A DNA stretch of 64,000 nucleotides, from positions 62,001-126,000 of the forward strand of contig NZ_BBBJ01000006.1 in NCBI RefSeq assembly GCF_001316005.1, in the 5' to 3' direction. The notes below the pieces were generated by a model that worked only from the letters and a program-made list of their open reading frames with translations, searched no databases and was not told the DNA's origin. Numbering within the stretch: the stretch's first letter is position 1; every line of letters starts with the position of its first letter. The DNA comes from Vulcanisaeta distributa JCM 11217. Its GTDB lineage: Archaea; Thermoproteota; Thermoprotei; Thermoproteales; Thermocladiaceae. The position numbers were made by a program, and so were the translations under genes. Shown in pieces: positions 41,855 to 62,585 of this stretch.

Positions 41855-44802
41855 ATGGGTTTTAATTTGAGGGATGTTGGTGGTGTTAGGACTAAGTTGT
41901 TTTATCTTGAATCTGCTTCCGTGATGGGTGTTGATGCTGTGAATCTTGAGGCTTGTGGTGGTGCTCTCTGTGGTTCTGTCGTGGTTAGGGGATTTTGGTG
42001 AGCCTTGGTTTTTCGTGGATGTTGTTGGTGAGGGTACCCTGAGGTTGATGATCTTCAATTCGCGGTTTTTAACTACGGTGATGAGGGTGAGAGTAGGTGG
42101 GTTAGGGCGTCCCCCCCAGGTAGGCACTCCCTGTCGCTTATTTTGTCCCCCCCTGTTAGGATGTTTGGTGAGCGTAGGGTGAGCTTCAACGGAATGTACG
42201 TTGTTTATAGGGAGCCTTCACTGTTCAACTTTGTACTGAGGGCTAAGTTGCTGCTTGATGTTGCTGAGGCCTTCGAGGACTTAAGAACCGACTACCTTAA
42301 GGTGCTTAATGAGGCCCTTGACGTGGTTCCCCCCCTGGACTCCGTGGCCAATTGGCAATTGGAGTTTGCGGTTAGAGCGCATATTGTTGAGCCTCCCGGC
42401 TTCGTTAGGGCATTATTTAATTATTACGATGTTAAGGAATTGACGCACCTGAGGCCGCCGGACTTCAACGAGCTTGGTAGGGCTGCTAAGGAGGGTTTGA
42501 GGGTCCTTGAGGAGGGTATTGAGGAGTTGAGGGTTAGGAGGGGCCATAGGGGGCGTTGTGTATGTGGCGGGCCATGCGCACATTGATCTTGGTTGGCTGT
42601 GGAGTAGGGACGTGACTAGGGAAAAGGTTAGGAGGACGATCATCAATGTCCTATCACTGCTCCAGTCCTACCCAGAGCTTACGTTTCTGGTGTCAAACAT
42701 GGCTTACTTGAGGTGGCTTAGTGAGGATAGGGATTTGTGGGCTAGGGTTAGGGAGGCCGTTAGGGCTGGTAGGATAGTGCCCGTGGGCGGTATGTGGGTT
42801 GAGAGTGATGCTAATCTGCCTGGTGGTGAGTCTTTGGTTAGGCAGTTCCTCTATGGGCAGAGGTTCCTCCTCAGGGAGTTTGGGTTTACGACAGAGATTG
42901 GTTGGTTGCCCGACACCTTTGGATTCCCTGCTTCATTACCGCAAATACTCAGGAAGGCGGGGATTAGGGTGTTCTTTGAGCATAAGATGTATTGGAACAC
43001 GGTTAATAGGTTTCCATACTCAGTGTTCCTGTGGGAGGGTATTGATGGCTCGGTGATACCCACAATTAACTACGCAACCTACGGCGCTGACCTAACGCCT
43101 AGGCAAATAGCCAGGGCTTGGTCAGACCACACAAGCCCCCCCGAATTACCTGCCTTCCTACCCTTCGGTAAGGGCGATGGTGGTGGGGGGACCAACGTGG
43201 TTAATGCTCGAGAGGTACAGGTGTATAGGGACTTACCCGGCATGCAAGGCTCGTAATGGGCAATCTAAGGGATTTAGTTAATGAGGTTGTTAAGGACAAC
43301 TCATTACCGAGGTGGAGGGGGGGTGAGCTGTACCTTGAGATTCACAGGGGGGGGTCTACACTAACGGCATAAGGCTCAAGCAGTTGGTTAGGGCCCTTGA
43401 GAATAGGCTTAGGGAACTGGAGACCTTCAGCGTAATCGCCGGCGTCAGGAGGAGTTATGAGGAGCTTTGGTACCCACTACTCGAGGCTGAGTACCACGAC
43501 CCAATGGGGGCCACATCGACTAAGGCAGTCTATGAGGAGGTAATTAACGAACTTGAGGATGACCTGAGAAGGGCCGGTGAGGAGTTAATGAGTGTGCTAA
43601 GGAAGGCCCTTGCACGGGCCACTTCGTAACAATAGTAAACCCACTACCCTGGGCTCGAAGGGAGTTGGTAATGGTTAAGGAGGAACTGAGCGGTGTACCA
43701 ACACAGAGAGTTAACAATGGTTACCTAGCACTAATTGAGGTCCCCCCCGCACTTGGTTGGAGGTCCTTTGAGAAAGGCGCGGGGGGTTCCTCAGGCGATG
43801 TTACTGTTGGTAGTAATTTTGTTGAGAATTCCGTGGTTAGGGTTGTCTTCGATGGTTCATTGAGGATCTACGACAAGGAGGCTGGTAGGTGGGCCGTTGA
43901 GGACGGATACCTAATGGCCTGTGAGGACATGCCCAGTAAGTGGGATGGTTGGGACATAGATGCCTACTATAGGAGGGTTTGTAGGAGGTTGGAACCTACG
44001 GGCTTCAACATCGTGGAGAGTGGGCCATTGAGGGGATGCATTGAGGTTAATTATGTGTTTAGGGAGTCGAGTATTAGGCAGAGGATTTGCTTGAGCGCCT
44101 TCAGTAGGCGTGTTGATGTGGAGAATGAGGTTGATTGGAGGGAGAGGTTAACACTGCTCAAGGCGTTTATAGACTGGCATATTCGGGCAAAACGCATCCT
44201 TTGAGATACCCTATGGAGTGATTAATAGGCCAACGAGGCCCAGCAATACCTGGGAGGTGGCTAAGTTCGAGGTACCTGCCCTGCGCTGGGTCGATGTTTG
44301 GGACCCGGATTACGGCATTGCCATACTCAATGATGGTAGGCAGGGCTACTCGGTGGAGGAGAATACCGTGGCAATAACACTGCTCAGGTCGCCCATTTAC
44401 CCAAACCCATTCCTGGACTACGGCCATAACAAGTTCACCTACGCCATATACCCACACCCAAGTGATTGGAGGACTGCTCAAGTGCCCAGGAGGGCCTATG
44501 AATTCAATCAACCGCTAATCGTTGTTGAGGATACGGCAGGCGGCGACTCCTCATTCCTCGAAATTACGAACCCAGCAATAATGCTCGAAGCCCTTAAGTG
44601 GGGGGGTGAGGACTCGGGAATTGCCCTGAGGCTTTACGAGACCTACGGGGGGGTGAATGCGTGCACCGAGATCAAGGGCCTCATCAGGGGGGGTGAGGGC
44701 ATCGAGACGGACCTCCTCGAGCTAAATAATTACGGCAATGCAAATTTAGGCAGCCTATGCTTCAAGCCCTTCGAGATAAAGACGATACTCATCAAGTCAT
44801 GA
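41855..44802 (+). CDS. GH38 alpha-mannosidase (multiple frameshifts)
   Basis: Glycoside hydrolase family 38, about 970 residues when joined. VAGHAHIDLGWLWSRDVTRE is the metal-binding GHxHxDxxW-type start of the catalytic domain, TEIGWLPDTFGFPASLP holds the nucleophile Asp, and FEHKMYWNTVNRFPYSVF follows. The N-terminal beta domain (41855-42540) and the C-terminal beta-sandwich (43665-44802, ending LCFKPFEIKTILIKS) complete it. Shifts occur near 42000, 42150, 42560, 43180-43380, 43630 and 44190, many beside G7/C7 runs. Some may be real decay, but the rate matches that in essential genes here. Likely intracellular, acting on mannosides or glycans. The stop overlaps the convergent Sm gene. Confidence 0.82.
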
Positions 44803-45019
44803 CGTGGCCGGGCTAATGAATAGCACCGTGTCACCCCTAATAATCATCAAGCCACTCTTAACACCACCCTTCGGATTAATCTCCTCCGTATTCGTAAGCA
44901 GCAGGTTAAGGTGCTGATCATAACCAACGAGGACACCCCCTAATCTCGGTACCATTCCTAAGCTTCACCAGAATCACCTTATTCAAACTCTTCTGCAACT
45001 CCTCATTAACAATCTCCAT
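44797..45019 (-). CDS. Archaeal Sm protein (SmAP, frameshifted)
   Basis: Small RNA-binding ring protein of about 73 residues. Sm1: NKVILVKLRNGTEIRGVLVG with DQHLNLLLTNTEE; Sm2: LMIIRGDTVLFIS. These are textbook LSm motifs. The frame breaks in the middle of Sm1: GATTAGGGGGTG should be GATTAGGGGTG (G5 to G4). The stop overlaps the end of the GH38 gene by a few bases. It lies 190 bp from the tRNA-His fragment, just outside the accessory island, and is distinct from the three Sm-like proteins inside it. Confidence 0.88.
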
Positions 45020-45209: not shown

Positions 45210-45258
45210 GGGCCGGGGGGGCCGGGATTTGAACCCGGGTTCACGGGCTCCACAGGTC
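45210..45258 (-). tRNA. 3' half of tRNA-His (GTG): attachment-site remnant or split tRNA
   Basis: On the minus strand CCTGTGGAGCCCGTG (anticodon loop with GTG and 3' anticodon stem) is followed by a T arm (ACCCGGGTTCAAATCCCGG) and an acceptor 3' strand, where C7 stands for the expected C4 before GGC. The 5' half of the gene is not found in the next several hundred bases. Immediately upstream lies a hairpin, TTAATCA-CGTAAC-TGATTAA (45260-45279). Archaeal integrases commonly leave exactly this anticodon-to-3'-end copy at one end of an integrated element. A split or long-intron tRNA is the alternative. Confidence 0.7.
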
Positions 45259-47276: not shown

Positions 47277-47373
47277 CTCGAAACTTATGACAATGGCCAA
47301 GTCGATGAGCCAGGGCGAATTCGTGAGGGAATTGACCAAAATAATCGAGGTGATTGGGCATGACGGCCGTTAG
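47263..47373 (+). CDS. Mini-protein between wHTH and primase genes
   Basis: 36 residues from a GTG start, preceded by a good ribosome-binding site (AAGGAGGGTG). It contains MTMAKSMSQGEFVREL, which parallels MARSMTAEEFVEKL at the end of the previous protein. It overlaps the previous stop by 14 bp and the primase start by 14 bp. It may be a detached C-terminal module or a real small gene. Confidence 0.4.
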   Translation: MVTPDSKLMTMAKSMSQGEFVRELTKIIEVIGHDGR

Positions 47374-49831
47374 GGCAATTGGCCTCAGCATTGAGGAGAC
47401 GGCTAGGTTACTGGTTCATGCTGGGTATAACGTCATCTTCGTTAATGAGTCAAAGATGCCAATCGGTATTGAGGAATACGCCAAGTACTATGACGAGCAC
47501 ATGACTGAGGACTTCATAAACGAGTACGTGAAGAAGGCATTGAGGAGGGCTAAGGGCATTGCACTGCTTGGCAACATCAACCCGTGGTTCCCCCCCGATA
47601 AGAGGCTCGTGATTATTGACGTGGATAACCCATGGACTTGGGATGATGTTAAGCAGAGACTGCCGCAGGAGCTGGCGAATAAGATTGAGGGCTCGTGGAA
47701 GTGGCTCACTGGTCCGAGGTGCCCAATTGACAGGGATAAGCACGGCATTAAATGCGATGGTGAGGTGTGCACGCATGAAATGGGTAATGAGCCACACTCA
47801 TTCAAGCTGCCTGAGGCTAGGCGTGGCTTGGCTTACGCTGTTTTAGTTCCAGGCAACTGCGTTGGTCTTAGCGAGGGAACTAAGAAGTTGATGGGTGGAG
47901 ACATCGAGCTCAGGCTCAGGGGGGGTTATGAACTCATTCCACCTAGCCTTCACCCAAGCGGCATTAACTACGAGTGGAGTAATCCAGCGATTGTAAATGG
48001 CTTGGTCGTGCCACCGAGTGAGTTGACTTGCGATGAGTGGAGGACGCTCCTAAACGCCCTGGGCTATGGAAAGGAGTCGAAGCAGCAGGAGGTTACTCAG
48101 CAAACTGGTGGCCTCGGCACTAGGAGGTGCCGTGAGGAGGTGATTATTCCAGAGGACAGGATTGCTCAGGCTGTGCAAATGTTCAAGGACGTCTATGTAC
48201 CCAATTTCAGAGACCACATGCTCTTCGGCATCCTCGGCATGCTTTGGTGGAGGTGCGTCAGCTATGAATCGGCCAGGAAATTCGTTGACATGCTCACCAC
48301 ATGGGCCCAGCAGCAGTACCCAGATGAAAACGTCAAGAAGGACTACTACATTCTGGACTGGGTTTATGGCAGGGCAGGTGGTTCTGACGAGGATAAGCGC
48401 AGGTGGGGGGGTAAGCCAAAGTTTTACGAGCATTTAATCGAGCTTTTCAAGTCAAGGGGGGGCTTGAGTGAGGAGGAGGCCATTGCAAAGGCCGAGGCAT
48501 TCATAGGTGAGTTATTGAATGCCCTGGGCATTAGCTCGGGTGTTAGGAGGCCGCTGGCGTGTGAGGGTGCCTCATTCACGGCGTGTCTGAAGAGAATCGT
48601 GAGGTACGACGGGAATGTGAGAGTCGACTGTAAGGTCAGCATTTGCGGAATCGAGAATGATGACCACATCGAGGTGAAGAAGGTTACGCACAATGAGGAC
48701 TTCGACGTGGAGGAGATTCTTTGCACACTGCCGAAGACCATTGTGTGGTTCAACGAGAAGTTCACGGGTAACGCCTACATAGTCTTCGTTGATAAGCGTG
48801 GCAGGATTCACATAGTTGATGATGTTAATAACCTAGTTAATGAATTAAGGAATTCTGGCTACATAATCGAGAGGCTGAGTAATGAGGTTCAGCAGGCAAT
48901 CGAGAAGATGATGATTAAGGAGGAGGGCTACCTAACCCCCCCTGGCATTACTGAGGATGGCGTCATAGACCCAACCCTCAGGCTGGCTGAATTGCTCGGG
49001 CTTGATAAGTCCAGGCTAAAGCCCCCCCTTGACCTCAATGACTACGGCATTGAGTCGTTAGCCGTGATTCACGACTTCATAATGAGCCACTACCCAGGCA
49101 ATAATAAGTGGCGTGCCCTGGCCAACGTCGCCTTTGTCCTCGGGAAGATTGTCAGCCCGTACGTTAGGAAGTTCAATAGGACGTTCATAGACTCATTGAT
49201 TTGGAACTATGGCCGTGGTGGTGAGGGTAAGACATCACTCGTGGAGTACATCATGATGCCACTCCTGGGCATCACGGATGAGTTCAACGAGATGTACTTC
49301 GTAGTACTTAAGGGTAGCGTGAGGACTTACCAGCAATTCCGCAATCTAATTAGCCTAAACAGGCTGCCTCTAATACTAGATGAGCAGACCGAGAAGGAGC
49401 TAACTAGCAATGAGGAGTTCATTATTGAGGCAACGATTGGCTTCGGCATTATCGGCGTCCACGCCGCTAGGTACGGCCCTGGAATCGGCGCATTCTTCAG
49501 GAGTAATAGGGGGGGCATCATAGTCTTCACAAATGTGCAATTCAGCAAATTCCTGAGGAAGGTTCAAGCCCGTGCCACTGAATTCGCCTTTGCCAGGCGT
49601 GTCGTAACGATTAATTGGGAACACGAGCCACTGAACGCTAGCACCGATGAGTTGATCGACCTAGCGAGTAGGGTCAAGCCGATATACGGGGGGGCAATAA
49701 ACAGGGTGTGGCCTAAGTACAGGGATGAGCTCATTAAGTCCAGGGATATTTACGAGCTCTCGAAGAAGCTACTCCTGGCGCTAGGCAGGGAATACGCAAT
49801 GGGTGATGAGGGGGCTGGGCAAAGTCATTGA
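47360..49831 (+). CDS. Primase-polymerase/helicase fusion (replication protein)
   Basis: 823 residues. N-terminal archaeo-eukaryotic primase domain (about 1-240): LVIIDVDNPW has the catalytic acidic pair (about residues 84-89), a Cys-rich insert (GPRCPIDRDKHGIKCDG, CTHEM) suits a zinc site, and GGYELIPPSLHPSGINYEW is the conserved nucleotide-binding end. The C-terminal SF3/D5-like helicase has Walker A GRGGEGKTS (about 618), Walker B LPLILDEQTEK (about 670) and GGIIVFTNVQFSKF as sensor. This is the layout of pRN1-type and viral replicases, and fits autonomous replication of the element. I use the ATG at 47360. The frame is open throughout despite six G7/C7 runs. Confidence 0.85.
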   Translation: MTAVRAIGLSIEETARLLVHAGYNVIFVNESKMPIGIEEYAKYYDEHMTEDFINEYVKKALRRAKGIALLGNINPWFPPDKRLVIIDVDNPWTWDDVKQRLPQELANKIEGSWKWLTGPRCPIDRDKHGIKCDGEVCTHEMGNEPHSFKLPEARRGLAYAVLVPGNCVGLSEGTKKLMGGDIELRLRGGYELIPPSLHPSGINYEWSNPAIVNGLVVPPSELTCDEWRTLLNALGYGKESKQQEVTQQTGGLGTRRCREEVIIPEDRIAQAVQMFKDVYVPNFRDHMLFGILGMLWWRCVSYESARKFVDMLTTWAQQQYPDENVKKDYYILDWVYGRAGGSDEDKRRWGGKPKFYEHLIELFKSRGGLSEEEAIAKAEAFIGELLNALGISSGVRRPLACEGASFTACLKRIVRYDGNVRVDCKVSICGIENDDHIEVKKVTHNEDFDVEEILCTLPKTIVWFNEKFTGNAYIVFVDKRGRIHIVDDVNNLVNELRNSGYIIERLSNEVQQAIEKMMIKEEGYLTPPGITEDGVIDPTLRLAELLGLDKSRLKPPLDLNDYGIESLAVIHDFIMSHYPGNNKWRALANVAFVLGKIVSPYVRKFNRTFIDSLIWNYGRGGEGKTSLVEYIMMPLLGITDEFNEMYFVVLKGSVRTYQQFRNLISLNRLPLILDEQTEKELTSNEEFIIEATIGFGIIGVHAARYGPGIGAFFRSNRGGIIVFTNVQFSKFLRKVQARATEFAFARRVVTINWEHEPLNASTDELIDLASRVKPIYGGAINRVWPKYRDELIKSRDIYELSKKLLLALGREYAMGDEGAGQSH

Positions 49832-50356
49832 GGATTACATAAAGGCCCTGGACTTTGTGCTTCAGGAGTACGAGGGTGAGAAGCCCCCCCAGTTATTGAG
49901 GAGTGATGAGGAGGAGTTTAGGGATGCAGCATATGAATTCGCCAGGGGCCTTGGCATTCAGATAAGGACGTGGATGGACGTGGTTGATGCATTGCTAAAC
50001 AATCTATCGAGTGGCATCGAGCTTCATAATGCCAAGTACTCGAATGAGGTGATTGAGATACAGGACAGGGTGCTTAAGCTGCTTGGTGTTGGGCCGAATG
50101 AGGATTTTGTCAAGAGCCCCCCCAAGGTGCCTAACTCAATAGCCAGGGCTTTGCAGGAGGGTAAGGTCAAGGTCTACGTTAAGCCATACGCCTTAGGCGT
50201 AGTGCAGGAGGAAGGCGCAAGTGGTTGGGCAAGGAGGGCACGCCATACAAAGGCACTAGGTACTACGTCCTTGACCTGGACGAATTCATAAGAATCTTCT
50301 ACGAAGCAACCGAGGAGTCCACGAAAGAGAGTGAGAAGCAGAAAGAGAGCTCTTAA
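49806..50356 (+). CDS. Hypothetical protein coupled to the replicase
   Basis: About 183 residues, all-alpha in the first part (VIEDYIKALDFVLQEYEGEK, FARGLGIQIRTWMDVVDALL). After a shift near 50218 the end reads KWLGKEGTPYKGTRYYVLDL then DEFIRIFYEATEES. Start overlaps the replicase by 26 bp, so it is translated with it. It could be a helicase accessory factor. No family recognised. One G5/C7 region could alter details. Confidence 0.5.
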
Positions 50357-50833
50357 ATAAAGTAAAGAAATCATTTGATTTAAATAAAATAAAGCACGAC
50401 TTTCTACCTTTCTACCGGTTCTACCAAGTTTCTCACTTACTCTAGTAACTAGTTAATTACGTATGCACGATTCACGCACAATTCAACCCCCCCTCACTTT
50501 CAGCCTCTAATAACCCCCCCACGTAGAGACAGAAGTATAGGGGGGGTTAGTGCAGAGTTCAGTAGAATCAGCAGAAAAGTAGAATCCCGTAGTACACTTG
50601 GCAAAGTTTAAGCCACGGAGTCTCACGTGAATACCGTGAGCCCCCCCGTGTACTTTTCACATAATAATTAATGCCGAGTGTAGGTTAAGTAGTTAGCGTT
50701 TTGTTTTTCAAGGTGCCCAGTGACTTGAGCTGCTAGCTACTCAGCCCCCCCCTTAAGAAAGGTGGTTTACGCACTTTTGCACAGCCTGAGCAAAGCAAAG
50801 CTCCTAAATACTGGCTAAGCCTATTGGGCATTG
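50357..50833. other. 477-bp non-coding region, candidate replication origin
   Basis: No gene is visible. It holds a perfect inverted repeat CTCACG-TGAATAC-CGTGAG (50622-50640), paired C7 and G7 runs (50513-50551), a tetranucleotide palindrome near AGCTGCTAGCT (50723) and several C7 tracts. It lies directly after the replicase operon and before the strand switch to the genes at 51.2-53.5 kb, a usual position for an origin in small archaeal elements. Confidence 0.35.
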
Positions 50834-51100
50834 ATGAAAATCACGTGCGATGACATTAAGGAGTTCATGAACAAGTACGTGGAGGTTCAACTCAAGCAGT
50901 ACAAGGAGAGTGTTTGGGGGGGTAGGCTCATTGATTGTAACGGGCGATTCATAACGCTTGAGGACGCCCACAGGGGGGGATTGGGCGTTGGGCGAATGAG
51001 GAGGGTAATCATCAGGCTTGACTCGGTCACGTACATCGCCGAGTACGAGGAGCCACCTGAGGAGGAGGCACTCATTAAGGCGGTTCGAGGACTGAGGTGA
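50834..51100 (+). CDS. Sm-fold (LSm-like) protein A of the element
   Basis: 88 residues, MKITCDDIKEFMNKYVEVQL. A short N-terminal helix is followed by an Sm1-like hairpin (YVEVQLKQYKESVWGGRLID, then CNGRFITLEDA) and an Sm2-like strand pair (RRVIIRLDSVTYIAEYE). The C-terminus is acidic. It is clearly paralogous to the protein at 53866 (shared CDDIKEFMNK/CEDIKDFMNK and RLIDCNGRFIT/RLVDCNERFIT). Probably a ring-forming RNA-binding protein. I use ATG 50834 over the TTG one codon earlier. Two G7 runs may add Gly residues. Confidence 0.65.
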   Translation: MKITCDDIKEFMNKYVEVQLKQYKESVWGGRLIDCNGRFITLEDAHRGGLGVGRMRRVIIRLDSVTYIAEYEEPPEEEALIKAVRGLR

Positions 51101-51237
51101 ATCAGTGAGGTGCCTCTCATAAACTAGTTTCTATTAATATGTGTTAGAAGTGCTGGGTGAGGAGACGCACTCAGCCTGACGGGTGATGAGTGCACCCCTA
51201 CCGATACTAATCAATGAGCCCAATGAAAAACCACTGT

Positions 51238-51591
51238 TTACTGCCCAGCCCCAAGCATTGAGTCGAATCTATCCACGACACCCCTCCTAAGCTCCTCCTC
51301 AATCCACCTCAGCGCCTTCTCAGCGGCGCTCCTCAGTATCATGCATGAGGCTGGCTTAGAGGACTTGGCCCCAGCGAAGGCCACGCATATCCACCTAATG
51401 ACCTCGGCAATGATTAGCTCGGGCCTCTCCGTGTCTATCGGCACTGTCCCATACTTGCGGATTGCGAACCTAACCACCCTCCTTATGGTCAGCGGTATAA
51501 AGCCACCCTTCACCGAGCTAATCTCATGCTGTAGGTAATCCCTAACCACGCGAATAGCCTCGAGCCTAAGGACCTCCCTGTCCCTTGGCAT
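51238..51591 (-). CDS. Hypothetical helical protein of element
   Basis: About 117 residues, starting MPRDREVLRLEAIRVVRDYL; mostly helical with a central IRRVVRFAIRKYG and a Cys-containing helix (WICVAFAGAKSSKPASCMIL). Not recognised. The start overlaps the end of the small gene before it, in a run of three overlapping genes on the minus strand (52350 to 51238). Reading further upstream in frame adds only a basic, unlikely stretch. Confidence 0.5.
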   Translation of the reverse strand: MPRDREVLRLEAIRVVRDYLQHEISSVKGGFIPLTIRRVVRFAIRKYGTVPIDTERPELIIAEVIRWICVAFAGAKSSKPASCMILRSAAEKALRWIEEELRRGVVDRFDSMLGAGQ

Positions 51592-51727
51592 GCCCACCAC
51601 CCTCAAGCCCAACCTCAGCCACCGCCCTCTGGACAAGCCTCTCGAGTAGGGGTATCAAGGCGAGTGAGCCCTCCAACTCCGCGTTTTGAAAGCCCCCCCG
51701 CACAAGGGCCTCCCTAACACTGCCCAT
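51566..51727 (-). CDS. Small hypothetical protein of element
   Basis: 53 residues, MGSVREALVRGGFQNAELEG then LALIPLLERLVQRAVAEVG: an amphipathic helical protein. It starts 3 bp after the upstream stop and overlaps the next gene by about 26 bp, so it is likely translated as part of the operon. Alternatively it is the N-terminus of the 51238-51591 protein separated by one frameshift; the frames do join well at AEVGL, so that option is real. Confidence 0.45.
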   Translation of the reverse strand: MGSVREALVRGGFQNAELEGSLALIPLLERLVQRAVAEVGLEGGGHAKGQGGP

Positions 51728-51729
51728 CT

Positions 51730-52350
51730 TCAAGCCCCCCCAATGAATGCCCTCGCTACGTCGACTAACTTCTCAGCGTGCCTATTGATCACGGCCAAGT
51801 CAACAGCATCCCTTGACCCTTTGACATACCTAACCAGGGCCTTGAACAGGTTAAGCACCTCACCCTCTGGCTGCGCCACCAGGCAATGCAGTAGGTAGGG
51901 CTCTGCGAAACCCCCCCTGAGCAGGACCTCACCGGCTTGCCTCAGTGCCTGGGGCCTCGCTGACCTAGCATCAACCTCATTAATCAATGCGTAGAGCCTG
52001 AGCGCGTCAGCCACGTCGTTCGTCTCAAAGTAAACCAGGTTAGCCCATGCCTTCCTCCTGCCCTCCCTGCCGAGCCTTTTCATGGCAACTACCCACTTGG
52101 CGCCGAAAAGCACCAGGCTGCCTGGCCCGCCTTTGACGGGTGGCGTGTAATCGGTCAAGCCGATGACTGGGGTGAAGCCGCGCCTGATGAGGCTCGTTGC
52201 ATAAGCGATGCCAGGCAGGTAAACCACCTCATCAAGGGGGGGTTGATTTCCTGGCAGGTAGAACGGCGAATACATCCTCAGGAGCTCCTCTGCGTTTATT
52301 ACCTCGTGCCTCACTGACTTTATGGGGGGTTTCCGTTCAATCCCAGGCAC
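51730..52350 (-). CDS. Hypothetical protein of element
   Basis: 206 residues from a GTG start. Alpha/beta with LDEVVYLPGIAYATSLIRRG, GSLVLFGAKWVVAMKRLGRE, and a helical C-terminus (EVLNLFKALVRYVKGSRDAV). Not recognised; no catalytic motif is visible. It lies between the ATPase gene at 52554 and two small genes, all on the minus strand. Confidence 0.5.
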   Translation of the reverse strand: MPGIERKPPIKSVRHEVINAEELLRMYSPFYLPGNQPPLDEVVYLPGIAYATSLIRRGFTPVIGLTDYTPPVKGGPGSLVLFGAKWVVAMKRLGREGRRKAWANLVYFETNDVADALRLYALINEVDARSARPQALRQAGEVLLRGGFAEPYLLHCLVAQPEGEVLNLFKALVRYVKGSRDAVDLAVINRHAEKLVDVARAFIGGA

Positions 52351-52410
52351 TCCTCAATCACGTTATTAAGCCCGAATTGCTTATTTATTTGAGTGTCGAC
52401 TCACCGAGAA

Positions 52411-52436
52411 AACCCCCCCTCGTGGAGGGGGGGGTT
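52411..52436. terminator. C-run/G-run hairpin upstream of the minus-strand operon
   Basis: AACCCCCCCTCGTGGAGGGG and onward form an inverted repeat with loop CGTGG. The gap between 52350 and 52554 otherwise holds nothing obvious. It may be a terminator of the ATPase gene or a structural element. The stem length is unreliable because it is made of G and C runs. Confidence 0.35.
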
Positions 52437-52553
52437 GGTTCCTACCCAATAGCCAGCCTGCCTCTTTCCCCCCCTATAATCAAAGTTTATTAAGTCATAA
52501 TGAGGAGACGTGACTTGATTTTTAAGGTTGTGATCGATTAATTACTTCCCCCC

Positions 52554-53453
52554 CTAGGGCCTCGACTGCAGTATCTTGGTGACGAGGACGTCCCTAGCCA
52601 CCGTGCTCGCCTTGCGGTAGCCAACCGTGTTTCTAACCCTGTCAGCAAACTCATCGCATATCATCGTTAGCGTGGGGGGGCCGAAGCCCAGGTTAATCGG
52701 TTCCCTACCCCCCCTCGAGCCACTGCATGTGGCTGTCTTATCAACGCACTTAACCCAGTTAATCCTGATCCCACTACACTCCTCAGCTACGTACTGACCA
52801 ACCTCGCCCACGAGGGTTGCATTCCTCCTGATGTCCACGAAGACTTGGTTGAGTCCGGCTGCCGTGCCTATTACAATGCCTACGTAGCTTCTGAACGTGG
52901 TTAGTAGGCCCGTGAGTGTTTTCCAGATGCTGATGTCTCTGCTGCTTGCCCAGGCGCTTAGGTCGTCAAGGACAACGACTGGGTACTTGATCCCGCTTGG
53001 CTTGGCAGCCGCGATTAGGGCTATTAGTGAGTCCAGGTTGTTTATGAAGAGACCCTCATCAACGATTGCGTTGACACAGTCTTCAAGGGTCTCGAATGGC
53101 GGTGGCTCCCTACTGACCCAGTCGTACCTCCTCCAGAATTCCCTTGTCATGGGCCTGCAGGCGAAGAATAGGGCTGCCGTGGTCTTGCCAACCCCCTGCA
53201 TGCTCGTTGAGAGTCTCCAAGGCACCAGGAGGGTGGTCCCAGTGAGTGCCCAATAGGTTATGTCCGGCCTCAACTCCTTAACGCTTTTGGACTTGGTTGT
53301 CGTGAGTAGTGGGTATGTCCAGGGAAAAGTCTCCAGCATGAAGGGTATTAGCCTGCCCGGCTCATTGGTCTTCTCATAAACAGCCCAAAGCCTGTGTAGG
53401 TTAACCGCCAGGTTGTAGCTGACGAGTGCTGTTATCCTTCCCCCCCAACCCAT
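52554..53453 (-). CDS. P-loop ATPase of element
   Basis: 299 residues, MGWGGRITALVSYNLAVNLH. Walker A is MQGVGKTTAA (about residue 86), Walker B is YPVVVLDDLSAWASS (about 160), with a Cys-containing N-terminal half of the domain and a C-terminal region with CSGIRINWVKCVDKTATC, which could bind zinc. The fold fits a small AAA/STAND-type or packaging/partition ATPase; which one cannot be told. It lies divergent from the Hfq-like gene with about 80 bp between. The C-terminus ends in a C7-flanked region. Confidence 0.65.
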   Translation of the reverse strand: MGWGGRITALVSYNLAVNLHRLWAVYEKTNEPGRLIPFMLETFPWTYPLLTTTKSKSVKELRPDITYWALTGTTLLVPWRLSTSMQGVGKTTAALFFACRPMTREFWRRYDWVSREPPPFETLEDCVNAIVDEGLFINNLDSLIALIAAAKPSGIKYPVVVLDDLSAWASSRDISIWKTLTGLLTTFRSYVGIVIGTAAGLNQVFVDIRRNATLVGEVGQYVAEECSGIRINWVKCVDKTATCSGSRGGREPINLGFGPPTLTMICDEFADRVRNTVGYRKASTVARDVLVTKILQSRP

Positions 53454-53536
53454 CATGTACGCAGCGATTAAGCAGTTAAATGAGATTCGGCGCTTAGTTC
53501 GATACTCAAATAAGTTTTGGATTGCCTTACTCGGTA

Positions 53537-53869
53537 ATGAGTGGTAAGATTACAATGGGTGGTAGGCCCGTCACAAACATTAGTCAGAAGGAGCTTCTTC
53601 AGAAGCTCGCCCAGAGGCAGGCCCAGGCTAAGCCCGGCGAGGATGGCAAGAAGGAGAAAAGGCGTGGCTATAGGGACTCGTTTGATGATGATTACCTGAA
53701 TAGGACTATAGTCATTACGATGGATGATGGCAAGGCCGTGACTGGTCAATTGATTGCCTACACAAAGTTCTGGCTTAAGGTCGTAACGACTGACGGCAAG
53801 CTTGTTTATATCAATAAGGGTTATGTCAAGACAATCGAGCCTCAACCTGAGGCTGGTGGTCAGCAATGA
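53537..53869 (+). CDS. Hfq-like Sm-fold protein of the element
   Basis: 110 residues. A basic, charged, probably disordered N-terminus (KELLQKLAQRQAQAKPGEDG, KKEKRRGYRDS) precedes an Sm fold: LNRTIVITMDDGKAVTGQLI, AYTKFWLKVVTTDG, KLVYINKGYVKTIEP. The order and the final YINKGYVKTIEP recall Hfq's YKHAISTI more than archaeal SmAPs, although the similarity is judged by eye. Probably binds RNA. The stop overlaps the next gene (ATGA). A TATA-like CTCAAATAAG lies about 30 nt upstream. I chose the ATG at 53537 over an in-frame TTG at 53522. Confidence 0.65.
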   Translation: MSGKITMGGRPVTNISQKELLQKLAQRQAQAKPGEDGKKEKRRGYRDSFDDDYLNRTIVITMDDGKAVTGQLIAYTKFWLKVVTTDGKLVYINKGYVKTIEPQPEAGGQQ

Positions 53870-54156
53870 GCTTCACGTGTGAGGACATCAAGGACTTCAT
53901 GAATAAGCTCGTTGAGGTTCGGTTGAGACGCTCGAGGTTCGGCATAATGGGCAGGCTCGTTGACTGCAACGAGAGATTCATAACGATTGTCAATGACGAT
54001 CGCGAGTGCGAGGACGTCGACGTATGCATGAGGAAGGCGCTCGTCAGGCTTGACGAGATCGCGTATATCGCCGAGCTCGCGAGAAACCACACCGTAGATG
54101 AGGATGAGCTGGACATGGACTTGCTAGAGGAAGTCGGTTCGATGCGTCCGCGATAA
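53866..54156 (+). CDS. Sm-fold (LSm-like) protein B of the element
   Basis: 96 residues, paralogue of protein A at 50834: MSFTCEDIKDFMNKLVEVRL, MGRLVDCNERFITIVNDD, and Sm2-like ALVRLDEIAYIAELA. The C-terminus is acidic (VDEDELDMDLLEEVGS). Co-translated with the Hfq-like gene (4-bp overlap). Together with protein A and the Hfq-like protein this gives the element three Sm-fold proteins, which could form hetero- or homo-heptameric/hexameric rings. Confidence 0.65.
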   Translation: MSFTCEDIKDFMNKLVEVRLRRSRFGIMGRLVDCNERFITIVNDDRECEDVDVCMRKALVRLDEIAYIAELARNHTVDEDELDMDLLEEVGSMRPR

Positions 54157-54283
54157 TAGTTTGTGACAGATTGATTGTCGAGAGACTTAGAAAGCCTAAG
54201 GAGGGTTCTTTGTCGATGATGTTGAAAATGCGGGTAACAAAAGTAAAGACTTAAGTGGAGCAAAGGGAGAGTGGGGGGGTGGT

Positions 54284-56481
54284 ATGAAACCCCCCCCGTT
54301 ATGGGGGGGATTACGGTAGTAATCACGACGGTCATGATCATCACCGCATTGGCTCTTGTTGTTCATGCTCAGTACGTGCCTCCGCCCTCTCCAAACATTG
54401 AGTTCGTTTACTGGTCTCTCTCCTTGAATTCCACTGGTTATGCGGCTGTTGGAGCGAGTGGTTGCGTGCCTAGTCAGCAGTACAGCCTCTACGTATTCAC
54501 GCAGAGCCAGTACAATGCGTGGTACTCCGGTCACGCTGTAAATGCCGTTTACGCATCAACAATTGGCAGTACGGGTTCGCAATTAGTCATTTTACCCGCT
54601 GGTGACTACGTCGTTGTTGTCTACCCAGCTCCAAGCAATTACGAGACATGCCTAGAGCTGAGGTACGAAACAAGCCCATTCGGCATGGGTATTTCCTCAG
54701 CACCGAGTACGCCAATAACGACAAACGCAGTCATGGGGGGGTTCTTCAACATAACATCAATCTCGGGCTACAGCCTATACGCGAGCGAGTACAACATCCC
54801 AAGCGGCGCAGTCTCGCTCCAACTCAACGCCTGGCTAGTCGTGAGGCTCGCCGACGGCTCAACCCAGTACTTCTGGCTACAAAACACCATGAGCCTCCTC
54901 ACGCAGAGTAATGAGTTTAACCTAGTGGTTAATGTTTGGAACTACACGACATACCCATCAACACCGAGCAACATAGTTGGCGGGGGGGGCTCCATACAAA
55001 ACTCGACGGAGGGCTACGCGTACATATACATGACGCAGAACATGACTTACTCACTGCCGTTCTCCGGCTACCTAGTCATTGCAGTGGAGCAGGCAGGCAG
55101 CAACACGGTGAATGTCGGCTTCGGCTACGTCATTATCCAGAGCGGGAGTTACGAGCCCCCCCCACAGGTTGTTTGGTACGACAACGCCACAATAACGTTC
55201 AACGAACCCATTGAGGGCGCGGGCATTGAAATAAGCAACCAACTCACGCCAAGTGATTTACCGCTTAATGCGGAGTTCGTATTTGGTGGCTACTCAAGCG
55301 GTGTCCCCCCCGCGGTGTTTAACTCCCTAAGTGCGGAGTTGGCGCTTGTTTATTGGAGTGGCACATCCTGGCTGCCCCCCCACCCAATGACTACAGCTTT
55401 GCACTTACCACAGCCGAGTCAGCGACTGACCTACAGGTCAGCATGCCGGGCGCCTACGCAATTGTGAATGTGGGCACGCCGAACATCGGCTTGATCAACC
55501 CACAGCCGCAGATCCCGCTTTTGCCAATGACCTACGTCGAATTAAGTAACCCGGTGACTGGGGGTTAGCAGTGCGTTCTACGTGACTCAGCCGTACACCG
55601 TGAATTGCACGTCAATAATCAACGCCGGTTATGGGGTTAGGTACGTACTAACTGGGTACTACGTGAACGGTGAATTCACGACAACCCCCCCGCCAGTCAT
55701 TGAGCCGGGCAGTTGGTTCGCGACTTACGCGGTCTCCCCCCCAACCTACCAAGTGCAGTACCTGGTCAGCATAGCGAGCCCACTCCCAATCACGGTGAAT
55801 GGGGGGGTGCAGACCACCAACTACACGGGGGGGTGGGTCAACGCAGGCTCAACACTGAGTATTGAGGCTGGCAGGGTTATGATGAGCAACGGAACAATGC
55901 TTGTGCCGGGAATCAGCAATGAATCAATCACGGTGAATGCGCCAATGACCATGAGCATCACCTGGACACCATACTACCTAGTGAGCATTGCAAGCGTGCT
56001 GCCCATTTACGTGAATGGCAATGAGACCACGAACTACGTTGGTTGGGTGGCTAGGGGGGGCTCAACACTCCTTATTGAGGCTAACAGCGTGGTCTTGAGT
56101 AACGGCACCATGTTCAAGCCGTCAATCAGTAACGAGACGATTACCGTGAACTCACCCACATCGCTGAGCATCACCTGGACCACGTACTACCTAGTCACTG
56201 TGAGCAGTAACTACCCAGTCATTGTTAATGGCTCGTTAACGACGAGCTTCAGCGGTTACGTGAGGGCAGGCTCAAGCATTGGCATTGAGGCGAAGCCAAT
56301 ACCGGAGTACTGGGGGGGCTTAATCACACTCCGGCCAAACGCCACAGAGCTAGCCCTAACCATAGACAAGCCAACCACTGTCACAATAACCTACACACCA
56401 AACTACACAAACCTAGTAATTTTAATCATGGCGATTGCCGTAGCCACAGCAACAACACTACTCATTAAACGCAGGAAGTGA
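54284..56481 (+). CDS. Secreted membrane-anchored repeat protein (spike/S-layer-like, frameshifted)
   Basis: About 730 residues. Start ATG 54284 (MKPP..) is followed by a signal peptide (ITVVITTVMIITALALVVHA). The ectodomain is beta-rich with many NxS/T sites. Three tandem repeats of about 70 residues (55758-56400) share YLVSIAS-LPI-VNG, TNY-GWV and SNGTM-P-ISNE-ITV. A C-terminal helix (LVILIMAIAVATATTLLI) followed by KRRK anchors it in the membrane. Breaks at the G/C-run start, near 55360 and near 55570 are likely errors. It could be a viral spike, an adhesin or an S-layer-related protein; a hairpin terminator follows. Confidence 0.7.
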
Positions 56482-59253: not shown

Positions 59254-60779
59254 ATGGGTGTTTTTGATTCATTTGTTGATTGCCTCAGTAATTGTGAGGG
59301 TTTGTACCCTGTTGGCTCGGGTAGGGATAGGTGCTATGAGATTTGCCTCAGCAAGGCCGAGAGATTAATCGAACTAGGCACCAAGGATGGTAGTATTTCG
59401 AGGGATGAGGCCGAGAGACTGAGGAGCCTACTAAGCACGTGCAAATCAAGCATCGGCAAGGTTGAGGGGGGGTTGAGGGAGTACTGCGTTAGAAAGAATG
59501 AGGAGTTGATTAGGGCGTTATCACGTTCGAGCGAGGTTGTGGAGGCGCCGCCTGCCCAATCAAGTGTGGCTGAGGAGCAGTTACCGAGTAAGTTGGTTGA
59601 TTGCTATCAGTACTGCGTTAAGTATCATGGTGATGACCTAGCCGCGCTGCAGAGTTGTAGGTCTATGTGTGATGCCATGTGGAAGTCCGGCATTCAAGTT
59701 GGTACTGAGCAATTCTCGAATTGCTTCCCACAGGGAATTCTGGAGCTTGGTGAATTCGAGGCGAGGTATAGGAGGGCCGGTAGGATTGGGCTTGATGATT
59801 GGCAGATTGTCGCCCACGTCTCGTTCATCATAAACAAGATGCTTGAGGAGGGCAGGCAAAACAAGTGCCCAGACCCGGAGGAGATGATAGTTAGGATAGT
59901 GACCAGTAAATTGGACGAGATGGGCATAGACAGGTACTCAGTGAGGAAGGCGCACCTACACGGAATGCCCAAGGAGGTAAGACAATTAATCATGGAGATA
60001 TTCCCAAATGTTGAAGAAATAAGGAGACCGTCAATTGATGAAATAGCGAAGTACTACGAAGCATCGCAAAAACGAGCTACGGACATACCCAGCGGGCCCA
60101 GAGCCATTATTCCTCCAGGGTATGAGAAGTACCTATCCGAGAATAACGACCAGGGAATACCGCCAGAGCCCCCCCAGAGACCCCCCCCGGAACCTCCAAA
60201 TCTCTCTGAACACCCTAATAATGAACGAAAGCCTGAAGCAAGTGGTAATGAGTGCGTTGAGCCAGATTACTCATACATAGGTAATGTATTAATGGGCTTG
60301 ATCATCAATTACATAATCTTTGTATCACCAGCTGCCTATTTCGCCTATTTGGCATACATCAAGTACGTCACCTCTGTATATGCTTTCGCTCTCTCCATGT
60401 TTTTCTCCGCACTATTCTTTGCAACAGCATTAGGTCTTATACTAGGCGTTGAATATGCTAATTGGAGAGCGAGACGTCTTCGCTTTATTTCTTCTCTTAA
60501 TGCAGAAACAGGATGTTTACGCGTCATACCCCCCCTTGGTTTGAGCACATTGAGAGTTTATTTGCACCATTCTTTGCAGCGGCCTTCATTAATCCGGTGG
60601 TTGAGTACATTGTGTATAAAATGCTTAAATCAGGACCGATCACGCTTAATCCAGAGACTGTTACGTTGTACGAATCCATGGTGGCATTCTTCGTAATCAT
60701 AATTTTAATACTCATACTTAATACTCTCATTGACTGGAGTGATTGGCGCAGAAGACGCTTATTGGCTCCACCTCGTTGA
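59254..60779 (+). CDS. Twin-CX3C membrane protein 1 (novel family, frameshifted)
   Basis: About 507 residues; no family recognised. N-terminal domain: CLSNC and CYEIC about 12 residues apart (a twin CX3C pattern), then a helical spacer, then a second twin CX3C (CYQYC, 13 residues, CRSMC, about residues 118-140) followed by a helical block FEARYRRAGRIGLDDWQIV and a Pro-rich linker (about 290-335, GIPPEPPQRPP). The C-terminus has four membrane helices. A shift near 60530 is cured by C5 in place of C7 (RVIPPWFEHIE). The second twin motif and following 120 residues match the protein at 61128. Disulfide-stapled helical hairpins and a role at the membrane are inferred. Confidence 0.65.
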
Positions 60780-61127: not shown

Positions 61128-62585
61128 ATGGGTGGTTCAAGTGATTTAGATAGACGCGTTGAGTGTTATCGGGATTGTGTTAAGTATCATGGTGATGATA
61201 AGGCGTCATTGCAAACGTGCTATTCCATCTGCGATGCACTATGGAAACCTGAGCTGCAGTTTACCGATTTAGAGGCGTTTGAGAAGTGCTTTCCACATGG
61301 GATGCTCGAGCTTAAGGAATTCATGGCAAAGTACCGAAGAATTGGCAAGATAGGCTTTGAAGACTGGCAAATAGTGTCTCAAGTTTCAAGTGCTATTCAT
61401 AAAATGCTTGAGGAGGGTAAGCAGAATAAATGCCCTAATCTGTACGAGAGCATCATTAGGGTTGTAGTGAGCGTACTAAATAGTCTTGGGATAAATAGGG
61501 TTGAAATAAAGACTGCATACGCACATCACCTAACAACTGAGGAGAAGGCAATACTATCAGTCATATTTCCAAGCCTAAACCTGGGGGGGGTTTCACCAAT
61601 ACCATTGCCGGAATCACCAGGTAAGGATATGACGCAAAGTACCTCCGCACCAACTACCTCGGTACCTCAGGAATCACAATCAACGCAGTCTGCGCAGACA
61701 CAGGCGCAAAGGCCATTGGAGCAAACCAGTAGGCAGATATCCCTTGATGAGGCTTTGATTAAGGCCGTGAATGACTGCATGGCAAATAAGGAATGCGCCA
61801 ATAACACCTCTAAGATTAGGGAGTTACAGAACACTATAAACACGTTAATTAAGCTTGGGGGGGCCAATATAAATACCAGGGATTTCAGGGGGTGGACACC
61901 GCTTCATTACGCAGTTTCACTTGGTAATTTAGAGCTTGTTGAGTTCTTGGTTGAGCATGGTGCCAATATTAATGCTAAGGATATTAATGGAGTTACGCCA
62001 TTACATATTGCGGCAAAGAATGGGCACTTTAGTATTGTGAAGTTCTTGGTTAAGCATGGTGCGTTGATTGATGTAGTGGATATTTATGGTAAGACCCCCA
62101 TTGACTATGCAAGAGAAGGAGGTCATAAGTCCATTGTCAAATACTTAACGAATAAATTAATGAATAAACCACCAATTGGGTTATTCACGGCAGGCATTAT
62201 CGGTGGTATTGCCTTATCAATACTATTGATGTACCCGCCAGCATACCTATCCTCGGAGCTATATCTAATAGCCATACAAAATTCATCACCTGCCTTCGCC
62301 GCCTTAGCATCCTCAATTATAATACTACCATTAATGAGCGTAGTACTGTTATTCCTCGGATATGTTAGGTGGCTTGGCAGGCGTTATAACGTGTTGAGCC
62401 AATCAATATTATCTACATTAAGTGAAGTTATGGAGAGGGTTGCTATCTCAATAATAATTTCAGGCATTATTGAGTTAATGATTATATATTTACTCATGGG
62501 ACTCTCATTAAGTACTGCATATTTCGTATCAATATTTATAGGGATAGTAATACTCACGAGCATGCTCCTCATAAAAACGAAATGA
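61128..62585 (+). CDS. Twin-CX3C ankyrin membrane protein 2 (novel family)
   Basis: 485 residues, intact frame. The N-terminal twin CX3C domain (CYRDC, 13 residues, CYSIC, residues about 13-35) with FMAKYRRIGKIGFEDWQIVS matches protein 1 closely. A Ser/Thr/Gln-rich linker (about 165-205) leads to three ankyrin repeats (GWTPLHYAVSLGNLELVEFL; GVTPLHIAAKNGHFSIVKFL; GKTPIDYAREGGHKSIVKYL, about 260-345). Four membrane helices close the protein. Ankyrin repeats are rare in archaea, so transfer is possible. The layout (sensor-like domain, ankyrin adaptor, membrane part) recalls membrane effectors, but no function is shown. Confidence 0.7.
   Translation: MGGSSDLDRRVECYRDCVKYHGDDKASLQTCYSICDALWKPELQFTDLEAFEKCFPHGMLELKEFMAKYRRIGKIGFEDWQIVSQVSSAIHKMLEEGKQNKCPNLYESIIRVVVSVLNSLGINRVEIKTAYAHHLTTEEKAILSVIFPSLNLGGVSPIPLPESPGKDMTQSTSAPTTSVPQESQSTQSAQTQAQRPLEQTSRQISLDEALIKAVNDCMANKECANNTSKIRELQNTINTLIKLGGANINTRDFRGWTPLHYAVSLGNLELVEFLVEHGANINAKDINGVTPLHIAAKNGHFSIVKFLVKHGALIDVVDIYGKTPIDYAREGGHKSIVKYLTNKLMNKPPIGLFTAGIIGGIALSILLMYPPAYLSSELYLIAIQNSSPAFAALASSIIILPLMSVVLLFLGYVRWLGRRYNVLSQSILSTLSEVMERVAISIIISGIIELMIIYLLMGLSLSTAYFVSIFIGIVILTSMLLIKTK

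Follow-up and report, generated by a model that had tools for sequence, protein, structure and literature searches.

Three genes encoding predicted Sm-fold proteins of two classes, one Hfq-like and the other a SmAP-like pair, are carried by a single small mobile element of Vulcanisaeta distributa JCM 11217, and this combination is new. The element (22.1 kb) is integrated in a tRNA-His gene, and 18.8 kb of it lies inside the stretch of DNA analysed here, which comprises 64,000 nucleotides of contig NZ_BBBJ01000006.1 (C6; positions 62,001 to 126,000) and is referred to below as the window. An earlier note, made from the sequence alone, had proposed three Sm-fold proteins, one of them Hfq-like, in a mobile element; fold models, Foldseek searches and profile comparison bear this out. 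The chances are about even that these proteins constitute the element's own RNA-binding Sm rings, which would tune its replication genes.

The three predicted Sm-fold genes

All three open reading frames (ORFs) are intact and are located on the forward strand: (i) P0001 (50834-51100; 88 aa as read), a predicted SmAP-like protein whose fold was deduced from the model of its paralogue P0003, (ii) P0002 (53537-53869; 110 aa), predicted to be Hfq-like from a fold model, profile comparison and homologues, and (iii) P0003 (53866-54156; 96 aa), a predicted SmAP-like protein with an acidic C-terminal tail, assigned by fold model and profile comparison. The start of P0003 overlaps the stop of P0002 by ATGA (53866-53869). 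The paralogy of the first and last of these proteins, already stated in the earlier note, was confirmed by 49% identity over 71 residues (E=2e-21 in a single comparison).

The P0002 gene and its homologue in Vulcanisaeta JCM 16159 show identities of 0.79, 0.78 and 0.47 at the three codon positions, and dN/dS for the P0001/P0003 pair is approximately 0.44. These values indicate that the genes are under purifying selection at the protein level and are not chance ORFs.

P0002 is a Hfq-like protein

P0002 consists of a basic disordered tail (residues 1-48; pI 10.4) followed by a Sm core (residues 49-104). In the AlphaFold2 model, based on a six-row alignment, residues 51-100 of the core reach a pLDDT of approximately 89-95, in contrast to poor order over the first 48 residues. 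The model has the Sm order of a helix and five strands (57-62, 67-75, 79-84, 89-93 and 97-102), with a 3-10 turn ahead of the last strand and a short, Hfq-like turn between strands 3 and 4. AlphaFold2 produced Sm barrels for both P0002 and P0003, and not the other folds that the earlier note had named as speaking against its proposal. Hfq proteins accounted for 45 of the 50 best matches of the P0002 model in the PDB (Foldseek), and Methanocaldococcus jannaschii Hfq superimposed with a TM-score (by target) of 0.76-0.82 and a root-mean-square deviation of about 1.0 over 50 columns.

Profiles were compared by local hhalign, using 60 column shuffles and a reversed control. The P0002-family profile scored 31.7 against Hfq over 50 columns, a value reached by none of the 60 shuffles (maximum 14.8; reversed control 9.2), and 30.9 against SmAP (shuffle maximum 13.5). 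As a yardstick, the known relationship between Hfq and SmAP scored 29.5 in the same test (shuffle maximum 15.1). By predicted fold and sequence, P0002 is thus clearly a member of the Sm/Hfq superfamily, and Hfq-like. The best match of the family profile in the PDB was the M. jannaschii Hfq-like protein (E=0.018), and in PHROGs P0002 matched PHROG 26902 (4.7e-13), which contains ORF86 of Acidianus two-tailed virus (ATV), annotated as function unknown.

None of the three proteins has a name in Pfam, NCBIfam or PHROGs, and the matches of the P0002 family to LSM, Hfq, SM-ATX, DUF6897 and DUF2642 were all below the cut-offs. For the curated Hfq models, the best family member scored 16.2 bits against cut-offs of 27 (PF17209) and 61.7 (TIGR02383), and P0002 itself was not listed. 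A match of the family to CalpT10 was weak (E=0.1), within noise, and was discarded.

The 12 family members compared all share Asn93-Lys94 and an aromatic residue (Phe or Tyr) at position 78; 11 of them also have Trp79. The hhalign alignment places Lys94 of P0002 on Lys56 of Hfq and position 78 on Phe42; these two Hfq residues form part of the proximal uridine pocket. The earlier note had seen a Hfq-like Sm2 end after a basic tail; of the Y-K-H motif only the Lys is kept. P0002 has no Cys residue and hence no N-terminal C2H2 zinc finger.

P0001 and P0003, a predicted SmAP-like pair

The input for the AlphaFold2 model of P0003 was a two-row alignment of P0003 and P0001. The model comprises a helix and five strands with a 3-10 turn before the last strand (pLDDT 71.5; best blocks 83-91), and the five models disagree, ranging from 45 to 71. 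Strands 3 and 4 are joined by a long, Sm-like loop, and the "IRLDxVxYI" end fits the Sm2 layout. Approximately 40 of the 50 top PDB matches (Foldseek) were Sm, LSm, Gemin6/7, SmAP or Hfq proteins; the probability to Sm proteins was 1.00, but no match had E<0.001 (best 5.6e-3), and RimP was also among the matches. The model further matched the predicted structure of ATV ORF86.

At the sequence level, the two-sequence profile of P0001/P0003 scored 20.6 against SmAP in an alignment of 66 columns that kept the expected register, with 1 of 60 shuffles reaching the same score; hhalign gave no signal against Hfq. A direct relationship of the pair to P0002 was considered and rejected, as no profile signal was obtained. 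There was no match to Pfam LSM (PF01423), and weak Pfam matches were to the RimP C-terminal domain and DUF6897. In Sm2 the Arg and Asp are kept and the Gly is replaced by Leu; the Sm1 Asp-Gly is absent. The pair is therefore placed in the Sm superfamily by its predicted fold, to which the sequence signal adds suggestive support. No homologues of P0001/P0003 were found in 45 genomes of the order, 398 genomes of the phylum, two scans of viral contigs, or the phage and plasmid collections, and on this sequence evidence the pair appears to be unique.

Distribution and surroundings of the P0002 family

A single-sequence search detected P0002 relatives in 7 of the 45 genomes of the order, the three weakest of which (L008-L010) proved on inspection to be different proteins. 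A profile search gave matches, some of them partial, in 11 of the 398 phylum genomes, and the family is present in 7 of 81 genomes of the class. Relatives are also encoded by ATV (tblastn 8e-10) and ATV2. The plasmid collection yielded no P0002 relative, and a M. jannaschii Hfq-like query (last residues approximate) matched only bacterial plasmids there, several of the matches being annotated hfq. Judged from their sequences, P0002, ATV ORF86 and the homologues in Vulcanisaeta, Caldivirga and further archaea make up a crenarchaeal Hfq-like family that is new and unnamed.

Several of these genes are found close to replication functions. In the window, the element's putative replication protein (47354-49831, forward strand; 825 aa) combines a Prim-Pol domain (Pfam 5e-8) with a P-loop helicase and shares 29% identity with the primase/polymerase of Hyperthermophilic Archaeal Virus 2 (HAV2). 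P0001 lies near this helicase and P0002 3.7 kb from it. P0002 is divergently oriented, with 80 bp between, to a P-loop ATPase gene (52554-53456, reverse strand), whose product has a weak likeness to viral DnaA-like replication initiators (PHROG 5484, E=4e-5). In JCM 16159 no substantial ORF stands between a D5-type helicase and the P0002 homologue, which follows after a 390-bp gap, with a serine recombinase nearby, and in Caldivirga a homologue is located approximately 2 kb after a D5-type helicase on one contig. Other mobile surroundings are those in genomes G371 (archaeal integrase) and G040 (helix-turn-helix integrase, resolvase and superfamily 1 helicase), and in ATV.

The non-coding gap beside the helicase

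An ORF-poor gap (50357-50833, forward strand) precedes P0001 and is a candidate origin or control region. It contains a non-coding segment of approximately 59 nt with repeated GTAGAA motifs (50554-50612), which is conserved beside the helicase of other elements, in genomes G018 and G020 (contig C8); G018 has an extra copy elsewhere. The segment is a candidate origin or control site. The predicted fold of the gap (z -4.4) is partly owed to suspect G7/C7 runs. The gap between the helicase and the Hfq-like gene of JCM 16159 (L030:4692-4886) contains a large imperfect palindrome (fold z -6.4), and its structure is sounder than that of the window gap, as it is free of G7/C7 runs. The palindrome recurs after the helicase in genome G016 (contig C22), and there it is followed by no more than a remnant match to the Hfq-like gene.

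The element, its host site and the assembly

The element extends from position 45215 to the equivalent of window position 67358, past the right edge of the window. The left attachment repeat (45215-45256, reverse strand) corresponds to the 3′ part of tRNA-His and is identical over 42 bp to C6:129317-129358 (window equivalent 67317-67358). This right copy lies within an intact tRNA-His gene, which lies, with the right flank, at C6:129312 onward in the source genome. DNA to the left of 45256 aligns to two Vulcanisaeta relatives (95% and 87%), both of which run on through an intact tRNA-His. The element therefore has the features of tRNA-integrated archaeal elements: direct repeats of the tRNA 3′ end at both termini, a tyrosine integrase (C6:127929-129194) and an element-free site in relatives.

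Besides the genes described above, the element contains an ORF directly after the helicase (49803-50356, forward strand), which is frame-split in the assembly and has homologous DNA after the helicase in G020 (contig C8), two ORFs with no assigned function (51238-51636 and 51730-52350, both on the reverse strand), a gene for a thermopsin-like secreted protease (54271-55467, forward strand; Pfam PF05317, 7.6e-45) and one for a DUF3800 protein. A repeat-rich protein, probably located at the surface, is encoded at 55582-56481. An ankyrin-repeat membrane protein (61128-62585) resembles in its N-terminal part the product of the ORF at 59254; these are two related genes of the element. No capsid protein was recognised in the element, a plasmid- or virus-like replicon. 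The only Rfam match in the region, a sub-threshold tmRNA, was discarded, as it is the tRNA fragment.

A SmAP gene of the host (44797-45019, reverse strand) lies outside the element. Its start codon at 45019 and the repeat from 45215 agree with the distance of 190 bp given in the earlier note. The link with the element suggested there was rejected, and the neighbourhood is regarded as coincidental, because element-free relatives keep the same arrangement of SmAP beside tRNA-His. The host genome has a set of three SmAP genes. The frame of this gene is split in the assembly and also in the related genome G016, which is probably a homopolymer artefact. Long G/C runs in the window bunch at exactly 7 (148 runs of length 7 and 9 of length 6), and window runs of 7 align mostly to runs of 4 in a complete relative (8 of 9). 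This excess, seen in the window and in G016, resembles an artefact of assembly; it adds residues and may account for the split genes. P0001 has two G7 runs (50916 and 50973), both probably G4 runs lengthened in the assembly, with one extra Gly from each; G/C runs of 4 or longer are absent from P0002 and P0003.

Possible role of the Sm-fold proteins

According to the reading that we prefer, P0002 would assemble into a homomeric ring and use both its core and its basic tail to bind RNA rich in U or A/U. It would then modulate the stability or translation of element transcripts, foremost those of the Prim-Pol/helicase and DnaA-like ATPase genes. P0003, translationally coupled to P0002, and its paralogue P0001 would be SmAP-like partners in separate or mixed rings. 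We infer ring assembly, RNA binding, targets and replication control alike. This reading is supported by the predicted folds, the match of the P0002 family to the Hfq profile, the position next to the helicase and the DnaA-like ATPase, the pocket residues, the recurrence of the family among replicons and its patchy occurrence. Several observations weigh on the other side: the profile support of P0001/P0003 for SmAP is marginal and comes with no homologues, Gemin6/7 are among the better TM-score matches of P0003, family members in genomes G105 and G118 lie among transporter genes with no obvious element, and P0002 has an invariant N-K, with no His, in place of the Y-K-H of Hfq Sm2. Moreover, proteins with Hfq or Sm folds are also able to bind DNA or to serve as modules that form no ring.

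In an alternative explanation, the proteins are DNA-side factors that bind the element origin or helicase, with an accessory replication or nucleoid role and RNA secondary. The linkage to the helicase, Prim-Pol and DnaA-like ATPase, the structured and partly conserved non-coding segment between helicase and Sm gene, the basic tail of P0002 and the replication role speculated for plasmid-borne Hfq-like genes (PMC3543421) would all agree with it, but the conserved residues of the family align with the RNA pocket of Hfq, and we regard it as unlikely. It is similarly doubtful that the element proteins serve takeover or anti-defence, by joining host SmAP rings or competing with them and diverting the decay or translation of host RNA to the advantage of the element. 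Three Sm-fold genes of the element do stand alongside three SmAP genes of the host, the P0003 profile aligns end to end with host SmAP in the correct register with the Sm2 "R-x-D" kept, and a virus, ATV, carries the P0002 family. However, P0001/P0003, with their marginal score, have diverged too far from host SmAP to warrant the assumption of mixed rings, P0002 belongs to a different, Hfq-like subclass, and there was no match to the PADLOC defence library, whose coverage does not include anti-defence.

The weak Pfam matches of P0001/P0003 to the RimP C-terminal domain and DUF6897, the presence of RimP among Foldseek matches of modest E value, and the missing profile relation to P0002 would fit small SH3-like barrels outside Sm function (RimP-C-like or protein-protein modules), leaving P0002 as the only true Sm-family protein. 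We consider this improbable, given that most top PDB matches of P0003 are Sm, LSm or Hfq proteins and that the long loop 4 and the C-terminal motif fit the Sm2 layout. A further reading, in which Sm rings of two classes act with an element non-coding RNA from the structured helicase-side gap as a self-contained post-transcriptional control of replication, is a long shot.

Comparison with known systems

P0001/P0003 share with archaeal SmAP (host LSm, PF01423) the predicted fold, the long loop 4 and a Sm2-like end with Arg; unlike SmAP, they have no Pfam LSM match, Sm1 Asp-Gly or Sm2 Gly. The closest solved archaeal Hfq to P0002 is MJ1435 of M. jannaschii (2QTX, 4X9C, 5DY9), a chromosomal protein with about 15% identity. 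ATV ORF86 is a sequence homologue of P0002, but in a viral genome with other neighbours; no homologue of P0001/P0003 was found in the phage collection, ATV included.

A mobile element with a Hfq/Sm gene of its own is already known, so that the earlier note's view that no such system had been described does not hold for the Hfq-like part; what is new, besides the family of P0002, is an element that combines three Sm-fold genes from two classes. Plasmid-borne Hfq has been reported in bacteria (PMC5348863), and a Hfq-like variant is mentioned for Pyrobaculum spherical virus (PMC3543421). Borg elements encode 19 Sm proteins, which, compared by description only, resemble those studied here in residing on archaeal extrachromosomal elements and, in some cases, in having disordered N-terminal extensions, but Borgs are huge linear elements of methane-oxidising archaea (PMC9879509). 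In Thermococcus and Methanocaldococcus plasmids (pP12-1, pCIR10, pIRI48 and pMETVU01), Hfq-like genes lie directly downstream of the replicative helicase (PMC3543421). Compared by description only, these resemble P0002 in combining a Hfq-like domain with an N-terminal extension in an archaeal replicon, and differ in that most have a C2H2 zinc finger where P0002 has a basic disordered tail. As for the placement, a 390-bp gap separates the JCM 16159 homologue from its helicase, and P0002 lies 3.7 kb from the helicase of the window. Such plasmid genes have been known since 2013, with no function assigned. The present analysis ties a crenarchaeal Hfq-like family to the replication modules of integrated elements, and, if element RNAs are controlled, archaeal mobile elements would possess Sm/Hfq riboregulation of their own.

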